Of a DNA stretch of 38,389 nucleotides, positions 1-17,448 are shown in pieces. Source of the stretch: Chitinispirillaceae bacterium (GTDB lineage: Bacteria > Fibrobacterota > Chitinivibrionia > Chitinivibrionales > Chitinispirillaceae); the NCBI GenBank assembly GCA_016927235.1, contig JAFGNB010000104.1, positions 1 through 38,389 of the forward strand. Direction: 5' to 3'. Position 1 is the first letter of the stretch; each line of letters begins with the position of its first letter. The translations under genes and the position numbers were made by a program. The notes under the pieces were generated by a model. It worked only from the letters and a program-made list of their open reading frames with translations, had not been told where the DNA came from and did not search any database.

Positions 1-1041
1 CTGGTCGGACGATTCCGCGGCGGCCTTGCGTTTGTTAATATTTTAACAAGCATGCTGTTCGGCGCCATAGCAGGATCGTCGACCGCGGCGCTTTCGGGCG
101 TGGGAGGATTCATGATACCCCTGATGCACAAACTCGGATATAACCGGGAGTTCAGCACCTCGGTGACCGTCACCGCATCAACGACGGGCCTGCTGATTCC
201 GCCGAGTAACGTGATGATCGTTTACTCACTGGCAACCGGCGGCATGGTATCGATTGCAGCGCTCTTTATCGCGGGATACCTGCCGGGAATTTTGATGGGC
301 GCGGGGCTCATAGCGGTGAGCGGCTGGATTTCGGTCCGCAACAATTACGGAAAAGGAGCGTCGTTCAGCCTCAGAGACGCGGTGATGAGCCTGCTTCGGG
401 CGCTGCCGCCGCTCTTTCTGGTAGTTATCATCATCGGCGGGATACTTTCGGGATGGTTCACCCCCACCGAAGCCTCGGCAATCGCGGTTGTTTACGCGTT
501 GATATTATCGGTTGTCATATATCGCGAGGTGAGCGTCAGAGACCTCCCGCGGATCCTCCTGCAGTGCGGCATCACCACGGCGGTGGTGTTTCTGCTCATC
601 GGGACGAGCATGGCCATGTCGTGGGTGCTCGCCTCGGAACGGGTGCCTCAGGATATCGGCACTGCGCTGCTCGGCGCATCGTGCAACAAGGTTGTTCTCC
701 TGTTGATGATCAACGCCATTCTGCTTGTTGTCGGATGCTTTATGGATATGACGCCGGCGATCCTCATTTTCACCCCGATCTTCTTGCCTATTGTCGCGCA
801 GCTCGGGATCCACCCGCTCCACTTCGGCATCATCATGATCATGAACCTCTGTATCGGGTTGTGCACCCCGCCGGTGGGCACCTGCCTTTTTCTTGGATGC
901 AGCATCGGCGGAACGACCGTCACCAAGGTGATACGCTACATCATACCGTTCTTTATCGCGATGATCGTTACGCTGCTCGTTACGATATATGTTCCCGGAA
1001 TCAGCATGTGGCTGCCGGCGAAATGTGGACTTGTCAAATAA
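1..1041 (+). CDS. dctM: TRAP transporter large permease subunit, DctM type (5' end outside window)
   Basis: This gene is open from base 1 in frame with the ATG at 52, so its start lies upstream and roughly 80 residues are missing relative to the usual length of about 430. The visible 346 residues begin in a segment typical of DctM (LVGRFRGGLAFVN), followed by the Gly/Ser-rich stretch GAIAGSSTAALSGVGG. Many hydrophobic helices follow, with the conserved motifs TASTTGLLIPPSN and LCIGLCTPPVGTCLFLG. DctM is the ion-coupled inner-membrane channel subunit of TRAP transporters, which use a periplasmic DctP binding protein and the small membrane subunit DctQ; both would be expected upstream. Uronate isomerase follows after 54 bp with a strong ribosome binding site, so the likely cargo is a hexuronate, possibly 4-O-methylglucuronate. 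The substrate is inferred from context only. Confidence 0.93.
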   Translation: MVGRFRGGLAFVNILTSMLFGAIAGSSTAALSGVGGFMIPLMHKLGYNREFSTSVTVTASTTGLLIPPSNVMIVYSLATGGMVSIAALFIAGYLPGILMGAGLIAVSGWISVRNNYGKGASFSLRDAVMSLLRALPPLFLVVIIIGGILSGWFTPTEASAIAVVYALILSVVIYREVSVRDLPRILLQCGITTAVVFLLIGTSMAMSWVLASERVPQDIGTALLGASCNKVVLLLMINAILLVVGCFMDMTPAILIFTPIFLPIVAQLGIHPLHFGIIMIMNLCIGLCTPPVGTCLFLGCSIGGTTVTKVIRYIIPFFIAMIVTLLVTIYVPGISMWLPAKCGLVK

Positions 1042-1095: not shown

Positions 1096-2508
1096 ATGGC
1101 GCACTACCATCTGCATCCCGACCGGTTTTTCGATCCCGACCCGGAAATACGAAAATATGCGCGGGAAATTTATGAAACCATTACAAGCCTTCCGATCGTC
1201 AGTCCGCACGGGCATGTCGATCCGAAGATATTCGCGGAGAACCGGCCGTTTCCCAATCCCACGCAACTCTTCATCACCCCCGACCATTATCTGTTCAGGA
1301 TGCTTTACTCGCAGGGTATCCCTATGGAGTCGCTCGGCATCCCCACGGTTGATGGCAGCCAGGTTGAAACCGACCCGAAAAAGATCTGGCGTATTTTTGC
1401 GGAGCATTATTATCTGTTTAACGGCACGCCGACGGGGGTATGGCTCGATTACGAGTTCAATGTGGTCTTCGGGCTTAAGGAAAAGCCCGACGGCGGAAAT
1501 GCCCTGAAAAACTATGACGAATTGAACGAGAAACTGGGGTCGCCCGAGTTTCTGCCCCGAACGCTTTACAAGCGATTCAATATCGAAGTTATGTCGACCA
1601 CCGACGCCGCCGCCGACACCCTTGAGCACCACCGGTCGATACGGGAATCGGGATGGGACGGAAGGATCATCCCCTGCTTCCGGCCCGATACGGTGACGGA
1701 TATCTCGACGAAAAACTGGGCCGGAAATATCGCACGGCTCGGCGAACTCACCGGAAGCGCCGTCGATTCATTCGCCGGGTATATCGGCGCGCTGGAGGAT
1801 CGTCGGCGCTTTTTTCAGCGGATGGGCGCCACTTCCACCGATCACGGCGTGTTTGCACCCTATACGCACGAATTAACCGAAAAGGAGGCGGACGCGTTGT
1901 TCCGGAAGGCGCTGCAGGGGAAAGCCACGCCCGAGGACGCGCGGGTATTCACCGCCCACATGCTCATGGAGATGGCGCGGATGAGCACGAATGACGGGAT
2001 GGTTATGCAGATTCACCCCGGATCCTGTCGGAATCACAATCCGGCTCTTTTCGACAGATTCGGGCTTGACAAAGGGCATGACATTCCCGTACTCGCCGAG
2101 TTTACGCTCAATATGAGGGAACTGCTCAACCGCTATGGAAACGATCCTCGTCTGACCGTCATCGTCTTTACCCTCGACGAAGCGACCTATTCGCGCGAAT
2201 TGGCTCCGCTTGCCGGTCATTATCCGGCGCTGAAACTCGGACCGGCGTGGTGGTTCAACGACAGCATCCGGGGCATCACGCACTACCGAGAGTCGACGAC
2301 GGAAACCGCCGGTTTTTACAATACCGTCGGATTCAACGACGATACCCGCGCATTCGTTTCCATCCCCGCCAGGCACGACGTCTCCCGGCGAATGGACGCG
2401 AATTATCTCGGCGGGTTGGTCGCCCGGCACATCATCACCACCGACGAAGCATTGACAATAGCAAAAAACCTGACCTATCACCTGGTGAAGGAGGCGTACA
2501 AACTCTGA
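1096..2508 (+). CDS. uxaC: Uronate (glucuronate/galacturonate) isomerase
   Basis: The 470-residue protein has the usual length of UxaC. It converts D-glucuronate to D-fructuronate (or galacturonate to tagaturonate), the first cytoplasmic step of hexuronate breakdown. Family hallmarks visible are the N-terminal metal-binding HGHVDPKIFAEN segment at about residue 37, MQIHPGSCRNHNP near 306, and the C-terminal FNDDTRAFVSIPARHDVSRR region. The start is fixed by AGGAGGAATTCA immediately before the ATG. It lies 54 bp after dctM and is probably co-transcribed with it. Together with the SDR at 14135 and the sugar kinase at 15060 it supplies most of an Ashwell-type pathway. Whether it accepts 4-O-methylglucuronate is unknown. 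Confidence 0.97.
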   Translation: MAHYHLHPDRFFDPDPEIRKYAREIYETITSLPIVSPHGHVDPKIFAENRPFPNPTQLFITPDHYLFRMLYSQGIPMESLGIPTVDGSQVETDPKKIWRIFAEHYYLFNGTPTGVWLDYEFNVVFGLKEKPDGGNALKNYDELNEKLGSPEFLPRTLYKRFNIEVMSTTDAAADTLEHHRSIRESGWDGRIIPCFRPDTVTDISTKNWAGNIARLGELTGSAVDSFAGYIGALEDRRRFFQRMGATSTDHGVFAPYTHELTEKEADALFRKALQGKATPEDARVFTAHMLMEMARMSTNDGMVMQIHPGSCRNHNPALFDRFGLDKGHDIPVLAEFTLNMRELLNRYGNDPRLTVIVFTLDEATYSRELAPLAGHYPALKLGPAWWFNDSIRGITHYRESTTETAGFYNTVGFNDDTRAFVSIPARHDVSRRMDANYLGGLVARHIITTDEALTIAKNLTYHLVKEAYKL

Positions 2509-4061: not shown

Positions 4062-4733
4062 ATGAATGAGCTAGTGGAAACGATCGGCCGTTGCGTCGAA
4101 CGGGGAAAAATCAACAAGGCGTCCCCCTTTCCCGGTGATATGAAGGGCCTGGACGGGGCGGACGAACTGACGCATCAGGCGCTCGAGGCGGGGACGGATG
4201 CCGAAGCTATTCTCCAGGCGTGCATTGCCGCAATGGTGCGTATCGGTGAGAAGTTCGGGAGGAATGAAGTGTTCGTGCCCGAGATGCTCATGGCGGCAAA
4301 AGCAATGAAGGCGGTGACTGAACATCTCAAACCGTTTTTCCAGTCGGGAAGCGTGCAGGCAAAGGGAACCTTTATCATCGGCACGGTCGCCGGTGACCTG
4401 CACGACATCGGCAAGAATCTTGTGTCGATGTTCGTCGAGGGAAACGGCTGGAACGTCGTCGATCTGGGGGTCGACGTTAAGCCGGAGAAATTCATCGATG
4501 CGATACGTAAACAACCGAAGTGTGTCGTCGGGTTGAGCGCGCTTCTGACCACCACTATCGTCAGCATGTCGAAGACGGTGCAGGAAATAAGGGCGCTGTT
4601 TCCCTCTATCAACATTGTCGTCGGGGGGGCCCCATTAACTATGGAGATTGCGAAGGAAATGGGAGCGAACGGGTATGCGCGCGACCCCCAGGGCGCGGTG
4701 AGGTGGCTTGCCGCAATCAGGGAGGCGTCGTGA
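4062..4733 (+). CDS. Cobalamin-binding (corrinoid) methyltransferase subunit
   Basis: The 223-residue protein has the two-domain build of MtaC/MtbC and MetH B12 modules. A helical cap (about residues 1-95, with EKFGRNEVFVPEMLMAAKAM) is followed by a Rossmann-like cobalamin domain. The latter carries the lower-ligand motif DLHDIGK (D112, H114, G117), the GLSALLTTT loop (S159) and the GGAP turn near 188-191. It carries the methyl group on cobalt between the methyl-donor and methyl-acceptor enzymes. I chose the ATG at 4062 because a GAAGGGG-type ribosome binding site sits about 8 bases before it; an in-frame ATG at 4035 lies before the Shine-Dalgarno sequence and would add 9 residues. Its stop overlaps the next gene's GTG, showing translational coupling to the homocysteine methyltransferase. 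Confidence 0.93.
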   Translation: MNELVETIGRCVERGKINKASPFPGDMKGLDGADELTHQALEAGTDAEAILQACIAAMVRIGEKFGRNEVFVPEMLMAAKAMKAVTEHLKPFFQSGSVQAKGTFIIGTVAGDLHDIGKNLVSMFVEGNGWNVVDLGVDVKPEKFIDAIRKQPKCVVGLSALLTTTIVSMSKTVQEIRALFPSINIVVGGAPLTMEIAKEMGANGYARDPQGAVRWLAAIREAS

Positions 4734-5614
4734 AATCGCTTCTTGCGGCGGTAAAAAAGGGCAAGGTGCTGGTATCGGACGGCGCGTGGGGCACTCAGCT
4801 TCATCAGTGCGGCCTCACGTCGGGCGAATGTCCCGAACTGTGGAACGTCACCCGCCGTGCCGATGTCTTTAGCGTGGCGAAAGGGTACATTGATGCGGGA
4901 GCGGACATGATCGAGACCAACAGCTTCGGCGGGAGCCCGTTGAAGCTCGGCCGTTACGGTCTTGGAGACCGTGCCGCAGAACTCAATGAAGCCGCTGCGG
5001 CGATTTCACGGGAAGCGGCGGGCGTCGACCGTTTCGTCCTCGGCTCCATAGGGCCCACGGGAGCGATCCTCATGACGGGCGAAGTAACCGAAGAGGAGCT
5101 TCGCGAAGGGTTCCGCATTCAGGCGGAAGCCCTGCAAAAGGGCGGGGCGGACGTCGTATGCATCGAGACCATGTCCGCCCTCGACGAGGCATGCATCGCC
5201 GTACGCGCGGCAAGGGAGGCTGCGGGGGGTGAAATCGTCTGCACGTTTACCTTCGAGAAAACCGCTACGGGTGAGTACCGTACCATGATGGGGATTTCCC
5301 CCGCCGAAATGGTACAGGCGGTCAAGGAGGCCGGGGCCGATATCATCGGAACGAACTGCGGCAACGGATTCGACGGCATGGTCGAGGTGGTCCGCGAAAT
5401 CAAAAAGGTAGACCGATTGACGCCGGTGCTGGTTCACGCGAACGCGGGGAAACCGGTGCTGCGGAACGGGGTAACGGTCTTTCCGGAGACGCCGGAGATG
5501 ATGGCATCGAAGGTGAATGACCTGATAGGCGCCGGCGCCGACATCATCGGCGGATGCTGCGGTACGGGTCCCGAACATATCCGGGCGCTGGCGGAGGCGA
5601 TCAGGTATCGATAA
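4730..5614 (+). CDS. Homocysteine S-methyltransferase (MetH N-terminal domain-type)
   Basis: The 294-residue protein matches the homocysteine-binding barrel of cobalamin-dependent methionine synthase: DGAWGTQL (17-24), ETNSFGG (62-68), GSIGPTG (105-111). The three zinc-thiolate cysteines are C210 (GTNCGNG) and C276-C277 (GGCCGTGP). It should activate homocysteine and take the methyl group from a methyl-cobalamin protein to form methionine. It contains only this module and has no pterin-binding, B12-binding or activation domain; two of those exist as separate neighbouring genes. The start is a GTG inside the upstream stop (gTGa) with GGAGG 4 bases before it, so this first gene overlap implies coupled expression. 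In the operon it would act as methyltransferase II. Confidence 0.93.
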   Translation: MKSLLAAVKKGKVLVSDGAWGTQLHQCGLTSGECPELWNVTRRADVFSVAKGYIDAGADMIETNSFGGSPLKLGRYGLGDRAAELNEAAAAISREAAGVDRFVLGSIGPTGAILMTGEVTEEELREGFRIQAEALQKGGADVVCIETMSALDEACIAVRAAREAAGGEIVCTFTFEKTATGEYRTMMGISPAEMVQAVKEAGADIIGTNCGNGFDGMVEVVREIKKVDRLTPVLVHANAGKPVLRNGVTVFPETPEMMASKVNDLIGAGADIIGGCCGTGPEHIRALAEAIRYR

Positions 5615-6354
5615 TGGAGCGTCTGCTGCCGCAGAGCGAACGGGAGGAGGGCGTCTTCGAGGTGACGATCGACGCCGCCGATGTCACGATAAGTAAAGAA
5701 GTGCTGTACCGTGCGCTCGGCTATTCCGATAACCGGATCGACCCTCATTTTAAAGACATTGTCGACCACGTGCTCGCAGGGATACATGATCTATGCGCCG
5801 TAAGGGCGGGATACCGGGTCCTTGACGCCCACGTTAAGGCGGACCGCGGTGAAGGTCTTGTGGTGGGCCGCACATTCATTACCACCGGGTGCACTATTGC
5901 CGGTCAGTTGAAAAACGCCGAAAAAGCGGCTCTTTTTCTCTGCACCATCGGTCCCGGTATGGAAGCATGGTCGCGTCGGTTGTTTCGGGAAGGCGATCCG
6001 GTAAGGGGCCATTTCGTTGATACGGCGGCGTCGCTTGCTGCGGAAAAAGCGGCCGCCGTTCTGCACGATCATATCGGGCTCGTCATGGCGGGCGGCGGAT
6101 TGAAAGTCACCAACCGCTTCAGTCCCGGATACTGCGGTTGGCCGGTGGCTGATCAGCGGCGACTTTTCTCTTTTTTTCCGGAAAATTTCTGCGGTATATC
6201 GCTGACCGAATCGGCGCTCATGGTGCCGGTGAAATCGGTAAGCGGGATGATCGGTATCGGTGCACATGCGATGAGGGAAAATTATTCCTGTGAACGGTGT
6301 TCGAGAAAAGAGTGCACCGCCTCCCGGGCATACAAAAACTCCGCGCCAACGTAA
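5614..6354 (+). CDS. MetH-type activation domain protein (AdoMet-dependent corrinoid reactivase)
   Basis: This 246-residue protein resembles the vitamin B12-dependent methionine synthase activation domain as a stand-alone protein. The AdoMet-binding RxxxGY motif is visible as RFSPGYCGWP (R168 to Y173). The preceding VDTAASLAAEKAAAVL helix and following SLTESALMVPVKSVSGMIGIG segment also fit. The role would be to remethylate cob(II)alamin that has fallen out of the cycle, using AdoMet and an electron donor. Unusually, the C-terminus carries a cysteine cluster C226-x2-C229-x4-C234, suggesting a metal or Fe-S site. The ATG overlaps the upstream TAA (taATG), a second overlap in the operon. It begins 880 bp after the homocysteine methyltransferase start and ends 14 bp before the URO-D gene. 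Confidence 0.88.
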   Translation: MERLLPQSEREEGVFEVTIDAADVTISKEVLYRALGYSDNRIDPHFKDIVDHVLAGIHDLCAVRAGYRVLDAHVKADRGEGLVVGRTFITTGCTIAGQLKNAEKAALFLCTIGPGMEAWSRRLFREGDPVRGHFVDTAASLAAEKAAAVLHDHIGLVMAGGGLKVTNRFSPGYCGWPVADQRRLFSFFPENFCGISLTESALMVPVKSVSGMIGIGAHAMRENYSCERCSRKECTASRAYKNSAPT

Positions 6355-6368
6355 AAGAAGGTGTACTC

Positions 6369-7394
6369 ATGACGGATCAACAATGGGAAGTGTTGAAAAA
6401 AGTGGTGGGGGGCGAGGCTGTCAAACCCTTGCCGGTCGGATTCATCGTCGATTGCCCATGGCTTCCGAACTGGTACGGTGTCACGATCCTCGACTATTTT
6501 TCAAACGACGGCGTCTGGTTCGACGCCAACCTCAAAGCGATCAGCGATTTTCCGGATGTCATGTTCCTGCCCGGGTTCTGGTCGGAGTTCGGCATGTGCA
6601 CGGAACCGTCGGCATTCGGGGCGCGCTGCACCTTCCCTTCCGACGAATTCCCCTTTGCGCATAAAATCATCGCTTCCGTCGACGATATCGATTTACTGAC
6701 AATTCCCGATCCGAGAACCGACGGACTGCTGCCGTTCATGCTCAACCGGCTGCGGCTCGCTCAGCCGCGCATTGAAGAGGCGGGCCATACGATCCGCTTT
6801 GCCGTTGCCCGCGGTCCGCTCAATATCGCAAGCTACCTCATGGGATCAACCGAATTACTGACCGCCATGATGATGCAGCCGGAAAAAGTACAGAGGCTTC
6901 TAACGACCATTACGTCGTTTCTTAAAGGGTGGCTTGGGCTGCAGCGGGAAACCTTCCCTTCCATCGACGGCATTTTTCTGCTTGACGATATCATCGGATT
7001 CCTCGGTAAAGAGGAGTTCCGTTCCTTCGGCCTGCCCTTCTTCAAGGAGCTTTTTACCACCGATGTCTCAATCCGGTTCCTTCATAACGACGCCCCCTGC
7101 AGGGTTTCCGCGCCGTTTCTTCCGGAGATGAACGTCAACCTGTTCAATATGGGGTTCGACATTACCCTCGCGGAACTCAAGGAGTTGACCGGCGATCGGG
7201 TCGCTCTGCTCGGCAACATTCCTCCGCGCGATGTGCTGGCTGGCATTGATAAAACAAAGATCGTCGATGCCGCAGGAAAGATGGTGAATTCCCTCCAGAA
7301 TACGACAAAGGTCGTTTTTTCCTGCGGGGGAGGAATGCCGCCCGGCGTTCGTTCTGAAAATATCCGGCTGTTTATTGATGCCGTGCGGAAATGA
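6369..7394 (+). CDS. Uroporphyrinogen decarboxylase-superfamily methyltransferase (MtaA/CmuA-like)
   Basis: The 341-residue protein belongs to the URO-D superfamily, which contains the corrinoid methyltransferases MtaA/MtbA and the CmuA methyltransferase domain as well as HemE. It lacks the HemE N-terminal arginine-rich substrate motif. C-terminal zinc-type residues are present: H239 in FLHNDAPC and C319 in FSCGGGMPPGVRSENI. The usual HxC is here HND with a Cys at 244. The expected role is to move a methyl group between a small substrate and the corrinoid protein. The start ATG has AGAAGG 7 bases upstream; an upstream in-frame start at 6297 would overlap the previous gene. No methyl-folate domain is present in the operon, so I infer this is the methyl-donor-side enzyme. 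It could alternatively be a second acceptor-side enzyme. Confidence 0.88.
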   Translation: MTDQQWEVLKKVVGGEAVKPLPVGFIVDCPWLPNWYGVTILDYFSNDGVWFDANLKAISDFPDVMFLPGFWSEFGMCTEPSAFGARCTFPSDEFPFAHKIIASVDDIDLLTIPDPRTDGLLPFMLNRLRLAQPRIEEAGHTIRFAVARGPLNIASYLMGSTELLTAMMMQPEKVQRLLTTITSFLKGWLGLQRETFPSIDGIFLLDDIIGFLGKEEFRSFGLPFFKELFTTDVSIRFLHNDAPCRVSAPFLPEMNVNLFNMGFDITLAELKELTGDRVALLGNIPPRDVLAGIDKTKIVDAAGKMVNSLQNTTKVVFSCGGGMPPGVRSENIRLFIDAVRK

Positions 7395-7523: not shown

Positions 7524-10223
7524 ATGATGAAAACGTTCCGTGTACCGCCATGCGGGGTAGTGCTGTTTTTCTGTTTACTGTCCACATCGCCGCTCGCCTA
7601 TAACGGTTCTGAAGCATGGCTCCATTACACCGCCGTACCCGAGGGAATGAAGGCGGGGTATCAAGCCGTCTGTAAAAGCCTTGTGCTCTCCGATGCCGCT
7701 TCGGACACCTTGAAAAACGCACAGACCGAGCTGGATTTGGCAATGCCGAAATTGCTCGGCGGATCGAAACTGCCTGTTGCGGACGGGGCCGGGGCGATCG
7801 TTCTTGCGCCGGAGGGGTCGTCGCCCGTATCATCATCCGGTATCGATTACAGCAAGGTAACCGACGAGGGGTATATTATTAAGAGCAGCAACGGCAAGAC
7901 CTACATTACCGGTAAAAACCAGGTTGCCGTTCTGCGCGGAGTTTTCCACTTCCTTCGGCTTATGCAAACCGCCAAACCCATCGACAATCTCGATGTCGTC
8001 GAGAATCCCTATTTTCCCTACCGGGTGCTTGATCACTGGATTAATCACTATGGATCGAATGTTGAAACGGAACGGGTCTACGGCGGAGGTCGTGTATTTA
8101 AAATGGAAAATTTCGGAAACCTGCAGGGTGCGGAAAAGACACGGGTCATCAACTATTGTCGTTTGGCAGTTTCTTTAGGATTGAATGGAATATGTCCCGA
8201 TAATGTAAACACGTATCGTCAGAACAGCCTGGGGAACTACCGGTGCCTTGAGGAATCCAACCTTAAAAACCAGAAGGCATTTGCGGATCTTATAGGGACA
8301 TACGGACTCAACTACTATTTATCGGTATCCTATGCCAGCCCTCGGCTTGTCAGTCCGACCTACACCAGTGCAAACGCCTGGGATGACCCTAAAGCAAAAC
8401 AGTGGTGGTTCGATAAAGTTGCTGTTGTTATTTCCTACATTAAAAATTTCGGCGGGTTTTTAATGAAAGCCGATTCCGAAGGAGAAGAAGGTCCCCGTTC
8501 CACCTATAAGTTGAATCAGTCTCAGGGCGCCAATCCCATGGCGGAGGCCTTGAGAAAGCATGGCAAGGTAATGATATGGCGTACATTTATTTATGATACG
8601 TCGGATCCGGATTTCGCGATAAACCAATCCAAGGAGTTTGAGGCACAGACATGGGACGACGCCGTCATTTTGCGCAGCAAAGACGGGCCGCGTGATTTCC
8701 AGACGGTAGAACCGCCCAATCAGCTTCTTGCCATGGGAGGCGTTCGTCACGGCATGGAATTCCAGATCACCCAGGAATACACCGGACAGGATAAACATGT
8801 CTGCTGGCTGGTGCCGAAGTGGAAACAGATCCTCGATTGGGATATCAAAGGCGCAACCCTTCCTCCCTTTGGAGCCGAAGGAACGATCACCCGCCAGCTT
8901 CTCCGGGGTCCGGGTACGGCCACGTCGGGCGGGGGGGTATGGGGCATAAGCAATCTCAGCGATGCAGCCAACTGGACGGGGCATTTTATCGCTCAGGCGA
9001 ACTACTACGGATACGGCCGCCTGTCGTGGAATCCCCTGTTGAGCGCCGATCAAATCGCCGATGAGTGGATACGCTGCAGTTTTGACAAAGGGAATGATCC
9101 GGCGGTTCTATTTATTGTCAAGAATATGCTCATGAAATCATGGAAAACATATGAGGATTATACCATTTCCTACAGCGCCCTTATGCCGGCCCTGGGGAAC
9201 GACACCCATTATGAAATAGGTTTTGAAGCGATGAGGTCAAGCCGGTTTTATACCGTTTATTTCATGAATTTAACCGGTGACGGCATCGGCGTTGACCGTA
9301 CTCCGTCGGGCAATAACATGGTCCGTTATTTTCCAAAGGTCCTGGCCGATTCTTTCGCAACGGTCACCAGCTGCCCGGAAGACTACCTTCTGTTTTTCCA
9401 TCATTGCAAGTGGGAATACAAAATGAAATCGGGAATGACACTGATCCAGAGCCTTTATCATAACCACTTTCGCGGACTCAAGCAGGTGAGGAATTTCATC
9501 AACAACTGGAAGCTGCTTTCGGGTACGGTCGACGCGGAGATTCATTCCCATGTCACGAGCAAACTCAACACCCAGAACACCGACGCCAAACGGTGGGTAA
9601 ATACGTTTAAAAGCGATTTCGGTTCGAAATACTCCACGGCCGTCGGGTGCGATCTTTCGATAATGATTCCCGATGAGACCAAGGCGGTGACGTTGGCGGT
9701 AGGGGGAAGCGTTACTCTGTCGTCAAAGTATACCGATCAGAAAGGCGCCGCCGTCAGCGAGACGATACGATGGAGGGTGTGCCGCGAGCGGGAGGATCTT
9801 TCTCCGGAAGAGGGCGGCGTGCTGAGCGCCTCCGAAGGTGCGAGCGTAACGTTTTCCGCTGATTGTGACGGAGTGTACAGGGTCACCGCATCAACGGCGA
9901 CTTTTCCGGACCTAACGGACCAGATTCAGATTTTCGTCGGAGACTGGGCAAATGGGTGCCCGAGCGGTATCGGCTCCAGCATGATGGGCAAACCCGGAAA
10001 ATTATCAATGAATATCATCAATGGACCGCGTGGAATCGTCATTTCCACACCATGTCCGGGAAAAATCGATATTGTCGGATTACAGGGGCGCATCGTACGC
10101 TCTATTTCAGCGAACAAACCGGGGACCTATTTCTGGAACACAGGGGAAACTGCCAAAGGGCTCTACCTTATTCGGCTGCGAAATGAAATGCAAAGCCTGC
10201 GGAGCAAGCTGATCGTAAAATGA
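7524..10223 (+). CDS. Secreted GH67 alpha-glucuronidase with C-terminal Ig-like and sorting-type domains
   Basis: GH67 enzymes remove terminal glucuronate or 4-O-methylglucuronate from xylo-oligosaccharides. This 899-residue protein has a signal peptide (about residues 1-26) and the GH67 landmarks. These include FLMKADSEGEEGP with putative acid E319, RSKDGPRDFQTVEPP with D391, MEFQITQEYTGQ with E418, and APMWK-like LVPKWKQILDWD. The spacing E-72-D-27-E fits the known family catalytic trio. The catalytic part ends near residue 700. An Ig-like region (about 718-805) and a type IX/FlgD-like C-terminal segment (GKIDIVGLQGRIVRSI to LRSKLIVK) follow; normal GH67 enzymes lack these. The start was chosen at the ATG after GGGGAGGA; ATG 7527 is equally possible. 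An upstream in-frame reading frame without signal peptide is unlikely. Confidence 0.93.
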   Translation: MMKTFRVPPCGVVLFFCLLSTSPLAYNGSEAWLHYTAVPEGMKAGYQAVCKSLVLSDAASDTLKNAQTELDLAMPKLLGGSKLPVADGAGAIVLAPEGSSPVSSSGIDYSKVTDEGYIIKSSNGKTYITGKNQVAVLRGVFHFLRLMQTAKPIDNLDVVENPYFPYRVLDHWINHYGSNVETERVYGGGRVFKMENFGNLQGAEKTRVINYCRLAVSLGLNGICPDNVNTYRQNSLGNYRCLEESNLKNQKAFADLIGTYGLNYYLSVSYASPRLVSPTYTSANAWDDPKAKQWWFDKVAVVISYIKNFGGFLMKADSEGEEGPRSTYKLNQSQGANPMAEALRKHGKVMIWRTFIYDTSDPDFAINQSKEFEAQTWDDAVILRSKDGPRDFQTVEPPNQLLAMGGVRHGMEFQITQEYTGQDKHVCWLVPKWKQILDWDIKGATLPPFGAEGTITRQLLRGPGTATSGGGVWGISNLSDAANWTGHFIAQANYYGYGRLSWNPLLSADQIADEWIRCSFDKGNDPAVLFIVKNMLMKSWKTYEDYTISYSALMPALGNDTHYEIGFEAMRSSRFYTVYFMNLTGDGIGVDRTPSGNNMVRYFPKVLADSFATVTSCPEDYLLFFHHCKWEYKMKSGMTLIQSLYHNHFRGLKQVRNFINNWKLLSGTVDAEIHSHVTSKLNTQNTDAKRWVNTFKSDFGSKYSTAVGCDLSIMIPDETKAVTLAVGGSVTLSSKYTDQKGAAVSETIRWRVCREREDLSPEEGGVLSASEGASVTFSADCDGVYRVTASTATFPDLTDQIQIFVGDWANGCPSGIGSSMMGKPGKLSMNIINGPRGIVISTPCPGKIDIVGLQGRIVRSISANKPGTYFWNTGETAKGLYLIRLRNEMQSLRSKLIVK

Positions 10224-10360
10224 ACTCCAAAGAATATCCGGACCTGATAAAGGCCTTGATTTTATCGGAGGAATAGAGTTATTTCATATCGACATGAGAC
10301 GGCTGCGGGGGGAGAAAAGCGCTGTCTCGTATGTTTCCAGAAACGGAAAAAGGTTTGACT

Positions 10361-10966
10361 ATGAGAGCCTTCAGCGGTGCGGCTATGTGTGTTGTATTGT
10401 TGTCCTGTTTTTCACATGCAAAGAGTACCTTTTCTTCATTTTCATGGGCTCTGGCACTTCCCGTCGGCAACACGTCGGCAATGACCCTGCCTTATACCAA
10501 CTGGAAGAGACTCGATGTCGGCTGGGACGCCGGCATGACTTTTTTCGGTAAACCCTTTTTAAAATTAGACAATGCGTCGTCCGACCTGGCATTGGGCGGA
10601 AAAATCAGCTACAGCCGGTGGAAGCGTGATTCGACGTTGACTCCAGTCACTTTTCTCGGAATGCAGGGCATTTTACGATATTTTATCCCTTCTCAATATC
10701 TCCCTCCGATGATCGAGCCGTTCGATCTTTTCGCTCAGGCGGGCGGGGGGCTATTCATCGGAGAATACGGTTTTACCTCTCCCGACACGACTGACTGGTC
10801 TCAACCGCCAGCGGAGGTTAAAGTAACCGAAGGTAAAAAGTACTTCGGGATGAATGTGGGAGTCGGGATCAACTGGAATGTAATTGAGATCATGCCCGTA
10901 GTGACGATGGTTTTTACAAATAAACCGTCCATGTGGTTGTCGATCAGCGCAGGAATGACCTTTTAG
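10361..10966 (+). CDS. Predicted outer-membrane beta-barrel protein (small)
   Basis: The 201-residue protein starts with a signal peptide (MRAFSGAAMCVVLLSCFSHA), and AAAAAGG lies 8 bases before the ATG. The remainder is rich in alternating aromatic/hydrophobic beta strands and glycine turns (FDLFAQAGGGLFIGEYGF, YFGMNVGVGINWN, MWLSISAGMTF). It ends with Phe, the classical outer-membrane insertion signal. I do not recognise a named family. It lies between the GH67 enzyme and another outer-membrane protein and is on the same strand, so it may be co-expressed and assist passage or binding of xylan oligosaccharides or uronates. This role is inference from position. Confidence 0.75.
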   Translation: MRAFSGAAMCVVLLSCFSHAKSTFSSFSWALALPVGNTSAMTLPYTNWKRLDVGWDAGMTFFGKPFLKLDNASSDLALGGKISYSRWKRDSTLTPVTFLGMQGILRYFIPSQYLPPMIEPFDLFAQAGGGLFIGEYGFTSPDTTDWSQPPAEVKVTEGKKYFGMNVGVGINWNVIEIMPVVTMVFTNKPSMWLSISAGMTF

Positions 10967-10981
10967 GGCAACGGGGGAACG

Positions 10982-12466
10982 ATGCTACGCAATCTGTTGT
11001 TATTTACAGTGATGATCGTAACGGCGGCCGCCGTATCTCCGACCGCGCAGAACACCGATTCTGACGATATTTTTTTTGATGATTTCCCGGCGGTCGTACC
11101 TGAAAAAGAGTCGCCGCCGGCGGAGTCGCCCAAAAGCGACGACGCATTTTTCGAAGAAGTGTTTCCTACGGATACGGCGAAAAGGACAACGGATGACGGT
11201 CGATCAACATCCGGGAAAGGCCTGTTCGAAAAGGAGGGGGCGGAGGAGAAAACCATACCGAGAGAGCCGGAAAAACTGCACTACAGCGCGACCATCGATA
11301 TGCAGGTCGACAAGGAGATGTATGATGAATTCGTCGACGGTGGGAGCAACCGGTTCAGACTCCCGAATCTCCAGGGAACCTACCGTAAGATTGTCGACGA
11401 CTTTTGGATGAGAGTCGCCCTGCGGGGGTCATTGGAGCTGACCCACTTCGAGACTGCTCTCGCCCTTCGATTTTATCCTTACTGGATGATGCGACGTATG
11501 GACAGAGACAACGATCGGGGAGATATGGAGCCCTATCTTGATCTGACCGAACTTAACCAGGCCTATCTTAAGGTTTTTGCCGACTACTCAATGGACGACT
11601 CACTGAATCGGTTCCATATTTATTTGAAAATCGGCCGTGACGGTCTGCTGAACAGTTGCAGCCAGCTCTTCGGTAATTACCTCGACCTGCCGACAGCGGG
11701 GTACGGCGATTCGCGGTACATCAATGTCGTCGGTCCCTTTAAAAACCGGAAGGTATTCGCCAATCAGTTGGAACTGGGTTTTACTTTTAAAATAGGGGAC
11801 CTAGTATCGGGAAGAACATCAGCCATGATCGGCGGTAACGTCAATAATGAAAAATGGTACACGGCACCTAACCCCGCTCTGTTTCAGTTAATGGATTCGA
11901 GACTCTCCGCCGGTTTTTCGAGGGTATACCAGGATATATTCCTATGGAATGACCGGATACATCTGGGCGGGGGATTTCGCATTTATACGACGAAAGTAGA
12001 TAAGACCGAGCCGGTGATTACGGTGACGATGGTGGAGGGGGTCGAACTGCGGGACACGTCCGTCACCACCTTTGTTGCCGACAGCAGATACGTCAACGGC
12101 GACTGGACTTTTGATATTGTCCCCTTTACCCACGTTTCCGATTTTAAATTCTATTCGGAGTTCGCTTATCAGCGCTTGGGCGTCGGGTCGAGCACCGGCA
12201 TCGTGCGGCCGTTCAATATGGGGATCACCATCCCCACCGGCAATGTTGTGGATATCCTGGCTATTGAGTTTGAGAATGCGGCAAAAACGTTTTTCAGCAC
12301 CGAGAGCATGCGTGATAAAATCGGCAACCGAAAGAGCCATTCCGGCGCGTGGGGGATCGTGGTCGAAAAAAATTTTATGGACCACGTCATCGTTGCCTGG
12401 GGCCTTTATACCGCAAATCCTTCCGGCGACCTGAAAACCACGCTGCGCCTTTCGTCAGGCTTTTAA
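10982..12466 (+). CDS. Predicted outer-membrane porin-like protein with acidic N-terminal linker
   Basis: The 494-residue protein has a signal peptide (MLRNLLLFTVMIVTAAAVSPTAQ). An acidic, proline-rich linker with two copies of an FF-acidic-F motif (DDIFFDDFPAVV and DDAFFEEVFPTD, about residues 28-62) comes next. A long region with beta-barrel character follows (ALRFYPYWMMRR, FHIYLKIGRDGLL, LGGGFRIYTTKV), ending in LSSGF with terminal Phe. GGGGGAA precedes the ATG. It begins 15 bp after the previous outer-membrane gene, indicating one transcript. The repeated FF-acidic motif could be a contact site for a periplasmic partner. Porin for acidic xylo-oligosaccharides or uronates is a contextual guess; the family is unknown to me. 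Confidence 0.75.
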   Translation: MLRNLLLFTVMIVTAAAVSPTAQNTDSDDIFFDDFPAVVPEKESPPAESPKSDDAFFEEVFPTDTAKRTTDDGRSTSGKGLFEKEGAEEKTIPREPEKLHYSATIDMQVDKEMYDEFVDGGSNRFRLPNLQGTYRKIVDDFWMRVALRGSLELTHFETALALRFYPYWMMRRMDRDNDRGDMEPYLDLTELNQAYLKVFADYSMDDSLNRFHIYLKIGRDGLLNSCSQLFGNYLDLPTAGYGDSRYINVVGPFKNRKVFANQLELGFTFKIGDLVSGRTSAMIGGNVNNEKWYTAPNPALFQLMDSRLSAGFSRVYQDIFLWNDRIHLGGGFRIYTTKVDKTEPVITVTMVEGVELRDTSVTTFVADSRYVNGDWTFDIVPFTHVSDFKFYSEFAYQRLGVGSSTGIVRPFNMGITIPTGNVVDILAIEFENAAKTFFSTESMRDKIGNRKSHSGAWGIVVEKNFMDHVIVAWGLYTANPSGDLKTTLRLSSGF

Positions 12467-12604
12467 CCCGATCAACGCGCCGGAGCTGCAGAACGGCATC
12501 CATGGCGGCGGAGAGAATTCAACCGCCGTACGTCGGGGGAGCAGGGAGAGGGCGTGCATCGGCAGTCTGCTATCGACACCTTTTAGTTGAAAGGATTTCG
12601 TAAA

Positions 12605-14059
12605 ATGGAAAAAAAAGGTGACATTGCGGTCATCGGACTTGCCGTTATGGGGCAAAACCTCATTTTAAATATGAACGATCACGGCTATACGGTAGTCGCG
12701 CACAACCGGACGGTTTCGAAGGTCGATGAATTTCTCGACAACGCTGCGAAGGGCACGAAGGTCATCGGCGCTCATTCGATCGAAGAGACGGTGGGGCTTC
12801 TTAAAATGCCGCGCAAGATTATGCTCATGGTCAAGGCGGGCGAGGCGGTGGATCAGGGAATCGAGAAACTGCTTCCGCACCTCTCGCCGGGAGACTGCAT
12901 CATCGACGGTGGCAATTCTCACTTTACCGATACGATACGGCGGACGACATGTCTCGAAGAGAAAGGTTTTCTTTATATCGGTACCGGCGTTTCGGGAGGC
13001 GAGGAGGGGGCGCGCAGGGGGCCTTCCATGATGCCGGGCGGCAGCCCGAGGGCATGGCCTCTTGTAAAAGACATCTTCAGGGCGATCGCCGCCAGAACGC
13101 CCGACGGCGTTCCCTGCTGCGACTGGGTGGGCGACAACGGCGCAGGCCACTATGTCAAAATGGCCCACAACGCCATCGAATACGGCGACATGCAGATCAT
13201 CTGCGAGGCCTACCACCTCATGAAACAGGGCCTCGGCCTCACTTCCCGCAGAATGCACGCCGTTTTTTCACGATGGAACAAAACCGAACTTGACAGTTAC
13301 CTTATTGAGATCACCGCGGACATCCTCGCCTACAGGGACGACGACGGAAAGGCCCTCGTCGAAAAAATACTGGACAAGGCGGGGCAGAAGGGGACCGGAA
13401 AATGGTTCAGCGTCAACTCGCTCGATTTGGGCATTCCGGTCACGCTCATCGCCGAAGCGGTCTATGCGCGCTGCCTGTCGGCGCTGAAGGACGAGCGGGT
13501 CGCCGCGGCGAAGGTGCTTGCGGGGCCTCATGCAAAGATTACCGGCGACGCCGCGGCATTCGTCGAAGACATCCGTCGCGCGCTGCTCGCTTCAAAGATC
13601 GTCTCCTATGCCCAGGGGTTCATGTGCATGCGCGAGGCGGCGAGGGAGTACCACTGGACCCTCGACTACGGCAACATCGCCATGCTGTGGCGAAGCGGCT
13701 GCATTATCCGGAGCGTTTTTCTCGAAAGAATCAAGGCGGCGTACGACCGCAATCCGGGTCTTTCCAGCCTGCTGCTCGATGATTATTTCAGGGCGCTGAT
13801 CGATAAATGTCAGAAATCATGGAGGAGAGTCGTCATGACGGCGGTGAGAATGGGCGTCCCGCTCCCGGCGTTTTCGTCGGCGCTTGCGTTTTACGACGGA
13901 TACCGCTCTGAGAAACTGCCCGCGAACCTGCTGCAGGCGCAGCGCGATTACTTCGGCGCTCATACCTACCGACGTCTCGACGCTCCGGCGGATAAAATAT
14001 TTCATACCAACTGGACAGGGCGGGGCGGCGAGGTGGCGTCGGGGACCTATACGGTGTAG
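12605..14059 (+). CDS. gnd: 6-phosphogluconate dehydrogenase, decarboxylating
   Basis: Gnd oxidises 6-phosphogluconate to ribulose 5-phosphate, CO2 and NADPH. The 484 residues agree with the family length. Visible are the Rossmann motif GLAVMGQNLILNM, the VSGGEEGARRGPSMMPGG substrate loop, the KMAHNAIEYGDMQII helix with the catalytic Lys, and the C-terminal RDYFGAHTYRRLD and FHTNWTG segments. An AAAGGA ribosome binding site lies 9 bases before the ATG; an in-frame TTG at 12587 would precede that site and is not preferred. The gene sits in the hexuronate region between outer-membrane genes and the mannonate SDR, an unusual location, since Gnd acts on phosphorylated gluconate and not on Ashwell-pathway intermediates. 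See the LarA entry for a possible reason. Confidence 0.96.
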   Translation: MEKKGDIAVIGLAVMGQNLILNMNDHGYTVVAHNRTVSKVDEFLDNAAKGTKVIGAHSIEETVGLLKMPRKIMLMVKAGEAVDQGIEKLLPHLSPGDCIIDGGNSHFTDTIRRTTCLEEKGFLYIGTGVSGGEEGARRGPSMMPGGSPRAWPLVKDIFRAIAARTPDGVPCCDWVGDNGAGHYVKMAHNAIEYGDMQIICEAYHLMKQGLGLTSRRMHAVFSRWNKTELDSYLIEITADILAYRDDDGKALVEKILDKAGQKGTGKWFSVNSLDLGIPVTLIAEAVYARCLSALKDERVAAAKVLAGPHAKITGDAAAFVEDIRRALLASKIVSYAQGFMCMREAAREYHWTLDYGNIAMLWRSGCIIRSVFLERIKAAYDRNPGLSSLLLDDYFRALIDKCQKSWRRVVMTAVRMGVPLPAFSSALAFYDGYRSEKLPANLLQAQRDYFGAHTYRRLDAPADKIFHTNWTGRGGEVASGTYTV

Positions 14060-14134: not shown

Positions 14135-14986
14135 ATGGATCATACATTTCCGGACGATTTAAAGGGAAAATGCTGCGTTATAACCGGCGGCGCCGGGGTC
14201 ATCGGCTGTGCACTTGTCGAGGCGCTTGCACGTGCGGGCGTCAAAACGGGGATCATCGATCTCAACGGTGAACTTGCAATATGCAAGGCCAAGGAGATTG
14301 CCGATTCGACAGGCGGAAAAGTGATCGGCATTGCGGCGAACGTTCTTGAAAAAGCATCTCTCTTTGAAGCGAAAAAAACAATCAATGATGCGTTGGGGCC
14401 TGTTGACCTGCTTATTAATGCCGCGGGCGGCAACTCTCCGAAAGCCACCACGGGTGCGGAATTCATCGACGGTGCCGATATCGACCACCTCGAACGGACC
14501 TTTTTCGGTCTCGATCTTGAAGGGTTCCGGACCGTCTTCGATCTTAATTTCATGGGAACGCTGCTGACGACCATGGTATTCGCCAGGGACATGGTTGAAC
14601 GTAACGGCGGGGCGATACTCAATATCTCCTCCATGAATTCTTTCCGGCCTCTAACCCGCATTCCCGCCTACTCTGCGGCAAAAGCGTCGATCAATAATTT
14701 TACCGCCTGGCTCGCCGTACATCTTGCCCGCCGGAGTGTACGAGTCAATGCCATTGCACCCGGATTCTTCCTGACCGAGCAGAACCGGTTTCTCCTGTAC
14801 GAAAAGGAATCGGGCAGCCTGAGCCCACGGGGCAGAAAAATCATCAATGCCACACCCATGCAACGGTTCGGAACACCGGACGAGTTGCAGGATGCGACGC
14901 TTTTCCTCCTTTCCAACCGGTCGAAATTCATTACCGGAACAGTATTGCCGATTGATGGAGGTTTCAGCGCCTATTCTGGTGTGTAA
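14135..14986 (+). CDS. uxuB: SDR-family D-mannonate oxidoreductase (fructuronate reductase)
   Basis: The 283-residue protein is a classical short-chain dehydrogenase. The cofactor loop TGGAGVIG lies at residues 17-24, NAAGG near 91-95, the catalytic Ser is in NISSMNSF, the YxxxK pair is YSAAK, and the C-terminal ITGTVLPIDGGFSAYSGV is typical. Among SDRs, the DLNG after the second beta strand, the long GADIDHLERTFFGLDLEGFRTVFDLNFMGTL insert and the NRFLLYEKESGSLSPRG loop match the D-mannonate oxidoreductase group (the Bacillus UxuB type, unrelated to the E. coli enzyme). It would reduce fructuronate made by UxaC to D-mannonate. GGGGAAGGGG precedes the ATG. The next gene in the cluster is the sugar kinase. 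Confidence 0.85.
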   Translation: MDHTFPDDLKGKCCVITGGAGVIGCALVEALARAGVKTGIIDLNGELAICKAKEIADSTGGKVIGIAANVLEKASLFEAKKTINDALGPVDLLINAAGGNSPKATTGAEFIDGADIDHLERTFFGLDLEGFRTVFDLNFMGTLLTTMVFARDMVERNGGAILNISSMNSFRPLTRIPAYSAAKASINNFTAWLAVHLARRSVRVNAIAPGFFLTEQNRFLLYEKESGSLSPRGRKIINATPMQRFGTPDELQDATLFLLSNRSKFITGTVLPIDGGFSAYSGV

Positions 14987-15059: not shown

Positions 15060-16142
15060 ATGAAAAACGGTTTGAACATTGCACCGCAGGGGGCATTCGA
15101 CTTCATTTCACTCGGAGCGCTTGTCCACCGGCTCGACACGGGGATTACTCCTTTCCGTAAGGCCACCGAGTGCCTGATCCACATAAGCGGCGGAGAATTC
15201 AACTGCGCGGCAAATCTGGCGGACTGTTTCCGCTTGAAAACCGGCATCGCTACCGCGATGGTCGATTATCCGATCGGCGACCTGATAGCCGAGAGGATAC
15301 GTGAGATGGGCGTCACGCCATTTTACAAACAGTTCAGGCATAACGGCGTCAACGGTCCCAACATGGCAACGGTTTACAGCGACCGCGGCCAGGGGATCCG
15401 GCCGCCGATGGTCTTTTACAACCGCTCCAACGAGGCGGCGGCCCTGCTCAAGCCTGGAGACTTCGACTGGAAGGCCATCTTTTCCGGCGGGGTACGATGG
15501 TTCCATAGCGGAGGAATCTTCGCGTCGCTCTCCGAGACAACCAGCCGGGTGATCATCGAGGCCATGAAAGCCGCGAAAGAGGCCGGAGCGATCGTCTCCT
15601 TCGATCTTAACTACCGCAAAAAACTCTGGAACATCTGGGGGAGTCATGAGCGCACACTTGCAGTGTATGCTGAAATTGTCAAATACGTCGATGTTCTGGT
15701 CGGCAATGAGGAGGATCTGCAGAAAGGACTCGGCGTCAAGGGGCCGGAAGTCGATAAGAAATCGAAATTCGATCCGAGCGTCTTTTTCGGCATGATCGAT
15801 GAGGTAACGGCAGGATACCCGCAAGTGAAGATTGTCGCCACCACCTTGCGGGAAGTCCACACCACCAACCACCATACATGGGGAGCCGTTGCCTGGATCA
15901 ACGGACAGACCGTTATCTCCCCCACCTGCGAACTCGCCGTCTACGACCGGGTCGGCGGCGGCGACGGATTCGCTTCGGGCCTGTTTTTTGGCCTGCTCTC
16001 CGGCGAAGACCCGCAGACGGCGGTCAATCTTGGTTGGGCCCATGGAGCGCTTCTTACCACCTTTCCCGGCGATACCACCATGGCGACCATGGAACAGGTC
16101 CGCGCGTTTGCCGAGGGGGGATCAGCGCGCATTCAGCGCTGA
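15060..16142 (+). CDS. kdgK: PfkB-family sugar kinase, probable 2-keto-3-deoxygluconate kinase
   Basis: The 360-residue protein shows the PfkB/ribokinase fold: an N-terminal GGEFNCAANLA motif (about 40-50), the FDLNYRKKLW segment, NEEDLQKGLG, and the C-terminal anion-hole motif GGGDGFASG with catalytic base D302. KDG kinases phosphorylate 2-keto-3-deoxygluconate to KDPG, and the FYNRSNEAAALL motif is typical of that subgroup. AAAGGAG is placed 8 bases before the ATG. The context (uxaC, mannonate SDR) supports KDG. Mannonate dehydratase and KDPG aldolase are not in this window, however. With LarA and Gnd alongside, a gluconate-kinase role cannot be excluded from sequence alone. Confidence 0.82.
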   Translation: MKNGLNIAPQGAFDFISLGALVHRLDTGITPFRKATECLIHISGGEFNCAANLADCFRLKTGIATAMVDYPIGDLIAERIREMGVTPFYKQFRHNGVNGPNMATVYSDRGQGIRPPMVFYNRSNEAAALLKPGDFDWKAIFSGGVRWFHSGGIFASLSETTSRVIIEAMKAAKEAGAIVSFDLNYRKKLWNIWGSHERTLAVYAEIVKYVDVLVGNEEDLQKGLGVKGPEVDKKSKFDPSVFFGMIDEVTAGYPQVKIVATTLREVHTTNHHTWGAVAWINGQTVISPTCELAVYDRVGGGDGFASGLFFGLLSGEDPQTAVNLGWAHGALLTTFPGDTTMATMEQVRAFAEGGSARIQR

Positions 16143-16170
16143 CCGATACGGAAGACGGGAACCATCCGGC

Positions 16171-17448
16171 ATGCTTTTTTTCAACAAAGGTTCACCCACT
16201 ACCGAACTCTCGTTCAACGACCTGCGAGAGGGCGTTTCGACCGCGCTCGCTGCGTTCGGTCCGATCGGGAAGATGCTCGTCGTACCTCCCGATATAACCC
16301 GTCTGCATTCGCATGCGGGCGATATCACGCGCTGCGTTTACGAACAGCTCCCTCGTTCGGCAGGTGCCGTCATGCCCGCTCTCGGCACACATCTTCCCAT
16401 GACCGACAGCGAGATCGAAGCGATGTTCGGTGACCTTCCAAAGCGGCTCTTCAGGCCGCACCGGTGGCGGACCGACTGTGTGCCGGTCGGCATCGTCCCC
16501 GCTGATTATGTTTCAACGGTATCCGACGGCATTGTTGATTATGAGATTCCAGTATCAGTCAACAGGCTGCTTCTCGACCCGTCATTCGACTGCATTTTCT
16601 CCGTCAGTCAGGTGGTGCCTCACGAGGTGGCCGGAATGGCGGGCTACAGCAAGAACCTTGTTGTAGGCCTAGGTGGAGCGGAAAATATTCACAAGACCCA
16701 TTTTCTTGGTGCCGCCTTTGGCATGGAACGGATTATGGGACGGGACGATACACCGGTAAGAAAGGTGCTTAACTACGCGGTCAAGGAGTTCCTTGCGGAC
16801 ATTCCCCTCGTCCATGCCGTTACGGTGATCGGGTCGGATGGGAGCGGCGTTCCGAAGATACGGGGCCTTTTCATCGGTAACGACGATGAGTGCTACCATC
16901 AGGCGGCGGAACTGTCTCGTACCGTCAATGTACATCTATTCGATGCGCTGCTGAAAAAAGTGGTGGCATACCTCGATCCGCTCGAGTACAAGAGCACCTG
17001 GCTCGGCAACAAGAGCATCTACCGCACCCGGATGGTCATCGCCGACGGAGGAGAGCTTGTCGTTCTTGCGCCCGGCGTGAAGCGTTTCGGAGAAGATCCG
17101 CAGATCGACAAGCTCATCCGGACGTTCGGCTACCGGGGCACGTCAGCCACCATTAAGGCAGTTAAGGAACATGCCGCGCTGAAAAACAATCTCAGCGCCG
17201 CAGCTCACCTCATTCACGGCTCTTCTGAGGGACGTTTTTCTATAACGTATTGCGCGGGCGGGCTTGACCCGAAAGCGGTCGAAAACGCCGGGTTTTGCTA
17301 TGCGCCGATAAACGAAATGATGAGAAAGTACAATCCGGGCAAACTCTCCGAAGGGTACAACCGCCTGTCCGACGGTGAGGAGATCTATTTCATTTCCGCA
17401 CCCGGGACAGGGCTATGGGCCTGGAAAGGGAGGTTCGGTAGTGGATGA
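16171..17448 (+). CDS. LarA-family nickel-pincer racemase/epimerase, possible mannonate/gluconate 2-epimerase
   Basis: The 425-residue protein has the length of lactate racemase LarA and its key residues. The PDITR motif has R44, GTHLPMT gives H74, and VVPHEVAGMAGYSK gives H151 and K161. H177 follows in ENIHKTHFLG. The spacings H-10-K and K-16-H are the same as those of the cofactor-anchoring Lys and the nickel/catalytic His residues in LarA, so the nickel-pincer site appears intact. LarA homologues include 2-epimerases of hydroxy acids and sugar acids. Placed 28 bp after the kinase and next to a mannonate-forming SDR and gnd, interconversion of D-mannonate and D-gluconate is the best guess. 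The larBCE cofactor genes are not in the window. The ATG lacks a strong ribosome binding site. Confidence 0.82.
   Translation: MLFFNKGSPTTELSFNDLREGVSTALAAFGPIGKMLVVPPDITRLHSHAGDITRCVYEQLPRSAGAVMPALGTHLPMTDSEIEAMFGDLPKRLFRPHRWRTDCVPVGIVPADYVSTVSDGIVDYEIPVSVNRLLLDPSFDCIFSVSQVVPHEVAGMAGYSKNLVVGLGGAENIHKTHFLGAAFGMERIMGRDDTPVRKVLNYAVKEFLADIPLVHAVTVIGSDGSGVPKIRGLFIGNDDECYHQAAELSRTVNVHLFDALLKKVVAYLDPLEYKSTWLGNKSIYRTRMVIADGGELVVLAPGVKRFGEDPQIDKLIRTFGYRGTSATIKAVKEHAALKNNLSAAAHLIHGSSEGRFSITYCAGGLDPKAVENAGFCYAPINEMMRKYNPGKLSEGYNRLSDGEEIYFISAPGTGLWAWKGRFGSG

Follow-up and report, generated by a model that had tools for sequence, protein, structure and literature searches.

What supplies the methyl group to a methionine synthase that has been divided into separate proteins and has lost its methyl-folate domain? 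The question is raised by four genes at positions 4062-7394 of contig JAFGNB010000104.1 from a Chitinispirillaceae bacterium (assembly GCA_016927235.1). The whole 38,389-nucleotide contig, here called the window, belongs as C205 to a genome of 4.15 Mb (396 contigs, 86.75% complete). As the initial annotation of this DNA had proposed for the B12, homocysteine and activation modules, the genes encode four separate proteins, in four ORFs of the + strand:

4062..4733, + strand: corrinoid (B12) carrier protein, 223 aa (PF02310, 5.8e-24; PF02607, 1.7e-16), with the DLHDIG cobalamin-ligand motif
4730..5614, + strand: homocysteine S-methyltransferase (HMT), stand-alone, GTG start (PF02574, 6.1e-70)
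5614..6354, + strand: MetH-type B12 activation protein, stand-alone (PF02965, 1.7e-9 over residues 168-236), with the NRFSPGYC motif
6369..7394, + strand: URO-D-superfamily methyltransferase (PF01208, 5e-30), the proposed 4-O-methylglucuronate:corrinoid O-demethylase (methyltransferase I, MTI)

No pterin-binding domain (PF00809) is encoded in the window, and the methyl-folate module is indeed absent from the operon. The URO-D protein is probably an O-demethylase acting on 4-O-methyl-D-glucuronate or its immediate product, whose methyl group would pass via B12 to homocysteine and yield methionine without folate.

The cassette possesses the zinc-cysteine homocysteine domain, the DxHxxG B12 domain and the RxxxGY activation domain (as a separate protein) of MetH. 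It lacks the methyl-folate (pterin-binding) domain, and its modules are separate ORFs in place of a single polypeptide. The B12, zinc-homocysteine and activation motifs are conserved across relatives. For the corrinoid protein, the nearest solved chains are stand-alone corrinoid proteins (1y80, 5.6e-46; 7xcn), with MetH B12 domains among the later matches, and GDLHDIGKNLV is conserved in an alignment of 27 sequences. The HMT retains the zinc-site cysteines of NCG and GGCCGT, conserved in a 24-sequence alignment (best solved chain 1q7m, 4.7e-44). The activation protein (structure model, pLDDT 89.3) belongs to a family whose profile matches 1j6r at 6.9e-19, and its NRFSPGYC presumably corresponds to the RxxxGY motif of the MetH activation domain. 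We take 1q7m to be a fragment of Thermotoga maritima MetH and 1j6r an activation-family protein of the same organism. Invariant C-terminal cysteines (CxxCxxxxC) were also noticed in the activation protein (5614-6354), outside the Pfam match; these may form a metal or Fe-S site.

The genes had been described as overlapping by 1 to 4 bases throughout, with a fixed stoichiometry as the consequence. Overlaps are found at the corrinoid/HMT junction (4 bases, GTGA) and the HMT/activation junction (1 base, TAATG), while a 14-base gap separates the activation and URO-D genes (stop TAA at 6352-6354, ATG at 6369); as to stoichiometry, gene overlap does not demonstrate it.

Fold comparison of the URO-D protein (structure model, pLDDT 94.1) does not discriminate between MtaA (4ay7; Z 31.4, rmsd 2.8, 325 aligned) and UroD (Z 31.1, rmsd 2.8, 324 aligned), to which it is equally near, and the fold also resembles that of the folate-using MetE. 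A PDB sequence search returned HemE chains only. Identity as HemE was rejected, TIGR01464 scoring 49.7 bits against a cut-off of 302.95. A methylcorrinoid:thiol methyltransferase of the MtaA/MtbA/CmuA type was likewise rejected: TIGR01463 gave 40.9 bits (cut-off 235.4), and the H-x-C...C motif of the MtaA-like paralogues, which we take to be their zinc ligands, occurs in 0/58 URO-D sequences, where it is replaced by an invariant HND (58/58) and a shifted cysteine (55/58). The E-x14-E-x20-H motif, presumably the zinc motif of some O-demethylases, is also found in 0/58; this decides nothing, since some MTIs are without zinc. In the model, the invariant polar residues D28, W31, E73, R148, D206, D207, H239, N240, D241 and S318 are placed at the barrel strand ends or directly behind them, which is where catalysis on a charged sugar would need them. 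The features of an O-demethylase system that are present are a UroD-superfamily MTI that is not HemE and a linked corrinoid protein. For methyltransferase II (MTII), which transfers methyl from the corrinoid to tetrahydrofolate, the operon has no pterin protein, and the HMT stands there instead. As activator, for which such systems use an ATP-dependent RACo/RamA protein, the operon encodes one of MetH type.

A second, MtaA/MtbA-like URO-D protein with HxC...C is encoded near the first in one related locus (L063:11036-12061), and similar ones in L021, L027, L028, L035, L040, L054 and L067; it could be a methyl-corrinoid:thiol enzyme.

Relatives were sought by a scan with four URO-D orthologues, and the best 80 of 467 were compared. 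The 81 loci consist of 77 of those 80, three substitutes (L017, L025 and L030 were swapped for L012, L014 and L013 from the same contigs before counting) and the window. Neighbour counts are limited to the DNA fetched around each locus, and some contigs are short. The closest named relatives are Chitinispirillaceae/Fibrobacteres metagenome-assembled genomes, and record titles of the loci name Fibrobacteres, Ignavibacteriae/Bacteroidetes, Calditrichaceae, KSB1 and Neomarinimicrobiota. The URO-D gene is also carried by L075, a metagenome-assembled genome labelled Melioribacter roseus. With linkage scored at >50% identity, the corrinoid protein is encoded in 28/81 loci, the HMT in 26/81 and the activation protein in 25/81. 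All four subunits occur together in 20/81, on one strand in 17 and with the trio divergent from the URO-D gene in 3. Because other species have this gene set too, the cassette is not a product of chance; the URO-D gene as a stray neighbour was rejected, its linkage to the trio being conserved and kept through rearrangement. Among 50 genomes with no corrinoid gene at the URO-D locus (of 51 such loci, L028 being omitted), 43 have a corrinoid homologue elsewhere at a threshold of 1e-30.

An alpha-glucuronidase is encoded at 28/81 URO-D loci (GH115 at 19, GH67 at 9), and at least one of GH67, GH115, GH10, GH43, GH8, UxuA and UxaC at 38/81. UxuA is found in 10/81, as is a short-chain dehydrogenase/reductase (SDR) resembling mannonate oxidoreductase (at least 36% identity). 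Among loci of at least 62% identity, 26/55 have an alpha-glucuronidase. Genome-wide counts, for which only matches above cut-off were used and split fragments were counted once, covered 50 of the 55 loci of at least 10 kb among the 77. The five omitted by hand (L028, L064, L078, L080 and L091) have no alpha-glucuronidase at the locus, so 22/50 becomes 22/55 when they are included. GH115 was found in 36/50 genomes, GH67 in 34/50 and either in 41/50. Random placement would put an alpha-glucuronidase at 0.43 loci, as against the 22/50 observed, an excess whose formal (Poisson) probability is inflated by shared ancestry. The association spans two unrelated enzyme families and several phyla.

A survey of 167 genomes of the bacterium's own phylum (thresholds 1e-45 for the corrinoid protein and 1e-50 for HMT) found the URO-D protein in 4, the corrinoid protein in 16, HMT in 16 (some of them MetH cross-hits) and GH67 in 11. 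GH67 is present in every one of the 4 URO-D genomes (phylum-wide p 1e-5). A pattern noticed post hoc concerns the GH67 scores: a divergent GH67 (about 208-254 bits) occurs in six family genomes, and these coincide exactly with the six of the family that encode the corrinoid protein; none of the five remaining GH67 genomes (about 468-502 bits) encodes it. In one genome (G002), corrinoid and URO-D genes are followed, beyond GH67 on the same contig, by activation and HMT genes.

The window itself provides a matching context, missed in the initial annotation, that points to the methyl donor. The cassette sits between a glucuronate isomerase and a GH67 alpha-glucuronidase, with a mannonate oxidoreductase and a sugar-acid kinase downstream:

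52..1041, + strand: large permease of a TRAP transporter, truncated at its N-terminus by the contig start, probably for uptake of uronates (PF06808, 3.8e-93, profile positions 98-413)
1096..2508, + strand: UxaC glucuronate isomerase (PF02614, 1.1e-79; NF002794, 535 bits, cut-off 387)
7524..10223, + strand: GH67 alpha-glucuronidase, the class releasing 4-O-methylglucuronate from xylan fragments (PF07488, 7.7e-70; PF07477, 1.6e-60; PF03648, 1.1e-9)
10331-12466: two proteins of 211 and 494 aa without a Pfam match
12587..14059, + strand: 6-phosphogluconate dehydrogenase (6PGD; TIGR00873, 741 bits, cut-off 426.7), syntenic in relatives
14135..14986, + strand: D-mannonate oxidoreductase (fructuronate reductase, SDR; NF006132, 370 bits, cut-off 281)
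15060..16142, + strand: PfkB-family kinase, probable 2-keto-3-deoxygluconate (KDG) kinase (PF00294, 9.9e-14; NCBIfam KDG kinase matches below cut-off)

Many glucuronic acid side chains of wood xylan bear a 4-O-methyl group and are released by GH67 and GH115 enzymes (PMC7071571, PMC3879575), both of which accept the methyl group (PMC3879575); glucuronoxylan makes up 15-30% of hardwood (PMC7071571). A demethylase would be needed because the methyl on O4 would survive the isomerase-reductase-dehydratase route to the aldolase step. In the proposed mechanism, extracellular xylan hydrolysis and GH67 would free 4-O-methylglucuronate, presumably imported by the TRAP transporter. The URO-D protein, as MTI, would bind this substrate in its TIM-barrel pocket and transfer the methyl group to Co(I) of the corrinoid protein, leaving glucuronate. 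The zinc-thiolate HMT, for which the domain and motifs are present, would then demethylate methyl-Co(III), passing the group to homocysteine to form methionine and regenerate Co(I). Carriers oxidised to Co(II) would be rescued by the activation protein with S-adenosylmethionine (SAM) and an electron donor, as in MetH, and the glucuronate would be burned via the UxaC, mannonate oxidoreductase and KDG kinase of the same contig.

It is unlikely that the URO-D protein acts on another plant methyl ether (2-O-methylxylose, a methoxyaromatic from lignin or the methylated sugar of a different polysaccharide), with the alpha-glucuronidases merely fellow members of plant-cell-wall loci. The UroD-superfamily O-demethylases known so far do use methoxyaromatics (PMC13222342), and at some loci GH88, GH97, GH3 or GFO/IDH and DUF6807 neighbours stand in place of alpha-glucuronidases. 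Against this, the annotated genes most often found nearby are those of alpha-glucuronidases, xylan hydrolases and the glucuronate pathway, and no aromatic-degradation family was found among 29 scanned neighbour genes of URO-D loci.

The destination of the methyl group has to be considered together with the other methionine genes of the genome. A search for a separate, complete MetH, as the initial annotation had suggested, found one on contig C111, an 819-residue HMT-pterin-B12 protein with zinc and B12 motifs intact. A 225-residue protein with RFSPGY on C150 could activate it, and MetF is encoded on C88. This C111/C150 pair resembles the T. maritima arrangement of a MetH and a separate activation protein (1q7m, 1j6r), the HMT and activation families of which also match the cassette. 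In T. maritima MetH, the HMT, pterin and B12 domains are in one chain, unlike in the cassette. The cassette is an extra system and not the cell's sole methionine synthase. The earlier view of a dissected B12 methionine synthase with a URO-D donor side is supported on these terms, with the qualification that MetH and MetF are also present.

Just upstream of the C111 MetH gene, and overlapping it by 4 bases, a gene cut by the contig end encodes a 497-residue HMT-pterin protein (L015:9297-10790, G000:C111), which lacks the zinc cysteines and is 41% identical to this MetH. The other URO-D protein of the genome (L016:2850-5118, G000:C315) is MtaA/MtbA-like and adjoins a Cys/Met PLP enzyme; a relation to the reported mlp clusters is possible.

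It is decidedly improbable that the methyl group ends on tetrahydrofolate, through the pterin domain of the C111 MetH or of its HMT-pterin neighbour in the manner of MtgD in Ruegeria, with the methionine role of the local HMT secondary. Such a sink would suit a catabolic flux, which requires a large one, and Mausz et al. 2025 (PMC12478193) describe one corrinoid protein common to demethylation, folate and methionine synthesis. The genome does have two pterin domains. The initial annotation had named a pterin methyltransferase elsewhere in the genome, paired with this corrinoid protein, as what would overturn it, and this was half borne out: the two PF00809 matches of the 86.75% complete genome, both on C111, are each fused to their own HMT domain, one of them within a full MetH that has its own B12 domain. 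No stand-alone pterin methyltransferase was found in this incomplete genome, nor any pterin methyltransferase among the window proteins scanned.

A methionine synthase in pieces that takes methyl-folate in trans, with the URO-D protein as an unrelated neighbour or a methyl-corrinoid:thiol methyltransferase, is very unlikely: a split MetH with a pterin-binding part is known (PMC5764234) and the trio occurs without this URO-D protein in genome G018, but the metal motif of the MtaA-like paralogues is missing from all 58 URO-D sequences, the URO-D gene stays linked to the trio on the same strand and in divergent order alike, and a complete MetH with intact motifs is already present.

Several observations weigh against demethylation of 4-O-methylglucuronate with methionine as the product. 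The seven xylan/uronate families listed above are absent from the fetched DNA at 43/81 loci, in part owing to short contigs. Among loci below 62% identity, 2/26 have an alpha-glucuronidase, DUF6807 occurs in 8/26 and GFO/IDH oxidoreductases also appear. Neither GH67 nor GH115 was found in 9/50 genomes; in 7/50 genomes a corrinoid homologue is lacking at 1e-30, and a sizeable share of the other 43 have distant homologues only. Within the bacterium's own family alone, the association of the URO-D protein with GH67 is weak (p 0.02). What argues most strongly against this URO-D protein being strictly required is G018 (96% complete), which has corrinoid, HMT, activation, GH67 and 6PGD genes in a row (L154:2778-9627, G018:C254) and in which no URO-D was found; G022, where again no URO-D was found, has the corrinoid/HMT pair at the end of a contig. 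Moreover, the flux of methyl groups from xylan could exceed the demand for methionine, and a further sink may be needed.

The trio is also found with other donor enzymes. In genome G035 the gene order is MtaB (PF12176, 3.6e-168), a GntR regulator, corrinoid, activation and HMT (L160:4914-9984, G035:C210). MtaB is a methanol-specific methyltransferase family, and this cassette suggests a route from methanol to methionine without folate, which fits the earlier proposal of a non-folate methyl donor. A different URO-D gene adjoins the corrinoid gene in G039. Of 30 corrinoid loci lying apart from the URO-D gene, 9 include an activation gene, 4 include an HMT gene and 10 an MtaA-like URO-D match within about 1.5 kb. 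The trio appears to be a unit for methyl transfer from corrinoid to homocysteine that varied donor enzymes can supply (this URO-D, other URO-Ds, MtaB). On balance, and by a slight preference, we see here a widespread and undescribed anaerobic route in which a dedicated URO-D O-demethylase for 4-O-methylglucuronate, wood xylan's main methyl-ether sugar, serves a folate-independent methionine synthase with an exchangeable donor (others being methanol through MtaB and further methyl ethers), carrying methyl groups of the plant wall into methionine and SAM.

Parts of this scheme are already known: split MetH, the coupling of demethylases to methionine synthesis and UroD O-demethylases for aromatic compounds. 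Corrinoid-fed folate-independent synthases are known or have been proposed. The split methionine synthase of Phaeobacter inhibens (Price et al. 2018, PMC5764234) likewise distributes the HMT, corrinoid and reactivation functions over several proteins; its third part is pterin-binding and no PF02965 protein is reported there, whereas the present cassette has PF02965 and URO-D proteins and no pterin part. In MtgBCDE of Ruegeria pomeroyi (Mausz et al. 2025, PMC12478193), a single corrinoid protein also joins demethylation of a natural product (glycine betaine) to methionine synthesis. The donor there is a pfam06253 glycine-betaine methyltransferase, accompanied by a bidirectional pterin protein, in contrast to a URO-D donor, a xylan/glucuronate context and no pterin protein in the cassette. 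The O-demethylases MtvB, OdmB, VdmB and MtoB and the chloromethane system CdmBCA (PMC13222342) share a UroD-superfamily MTI with a corrinoid protein, zinc not always being required. They deliver methyl from methoxyaromatics or haloalkanes to tetrahydrofolate via MTII, which is replaced here by the HMT, with MetH-type activation. MtvB, OdmB and VdmB were set beside the URO-D protein by description; UroD-type O-demethylases include clades without an assigned substrate (PMC13222342). The core methionine synthases MesA-MesD (Price et al. 2021, PMC7857596) also make methionine without methyl-folate, the predicted methyl source being a corrinoid protein (MesB, MesC) or MtrA (MesA); they are MetE-like catalytic domains, while the present HMT is of the MetH/BHMT type (PF02574). 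Neither a corrinoid O-demethylase for a sugar acid, nor this gene set, nor an oxygen-free enzyme removing the methyl of 4-O-methylglucuronate was found in the literature, a weak absence as open-licence papers alone were covered.

If correct, this reading would name an enzyme for the xylan methyl ether and explain how anaerobic xylan degraders finish 4-O-methylglucuronate. It would also describe a methionine synthase whose methyl donor changes by swapping one subunit. The fate of the xylan methyl ether could be followed in vitro with four proteins and a substrate that is commercially available, and the cassette would offer a folate-free methylation module for engineering.

A deeper Bacteroidales clade of URO-D proteins (L074, L084, L085, L087, L091, L095 and L096) adjoins GFO/IDH/MocA oxidoreductases and DUF6807 in place of xylan genes, and may act on another methylated compound. 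In the window, one GT4 glycosyltransferase is also encoded in the upstream stretch, between UxaC and the cassette. The two proteins at 10331-12466 accompany GH67 in several relatives and are possibly located in the outer membrane. Directly after the KDG-kinase-like gene, a LarA-like protein (lactate racemase N-terminal; 15832-17448) is encoded, which is perhaps an unrecognised sugar-acid epimerase.

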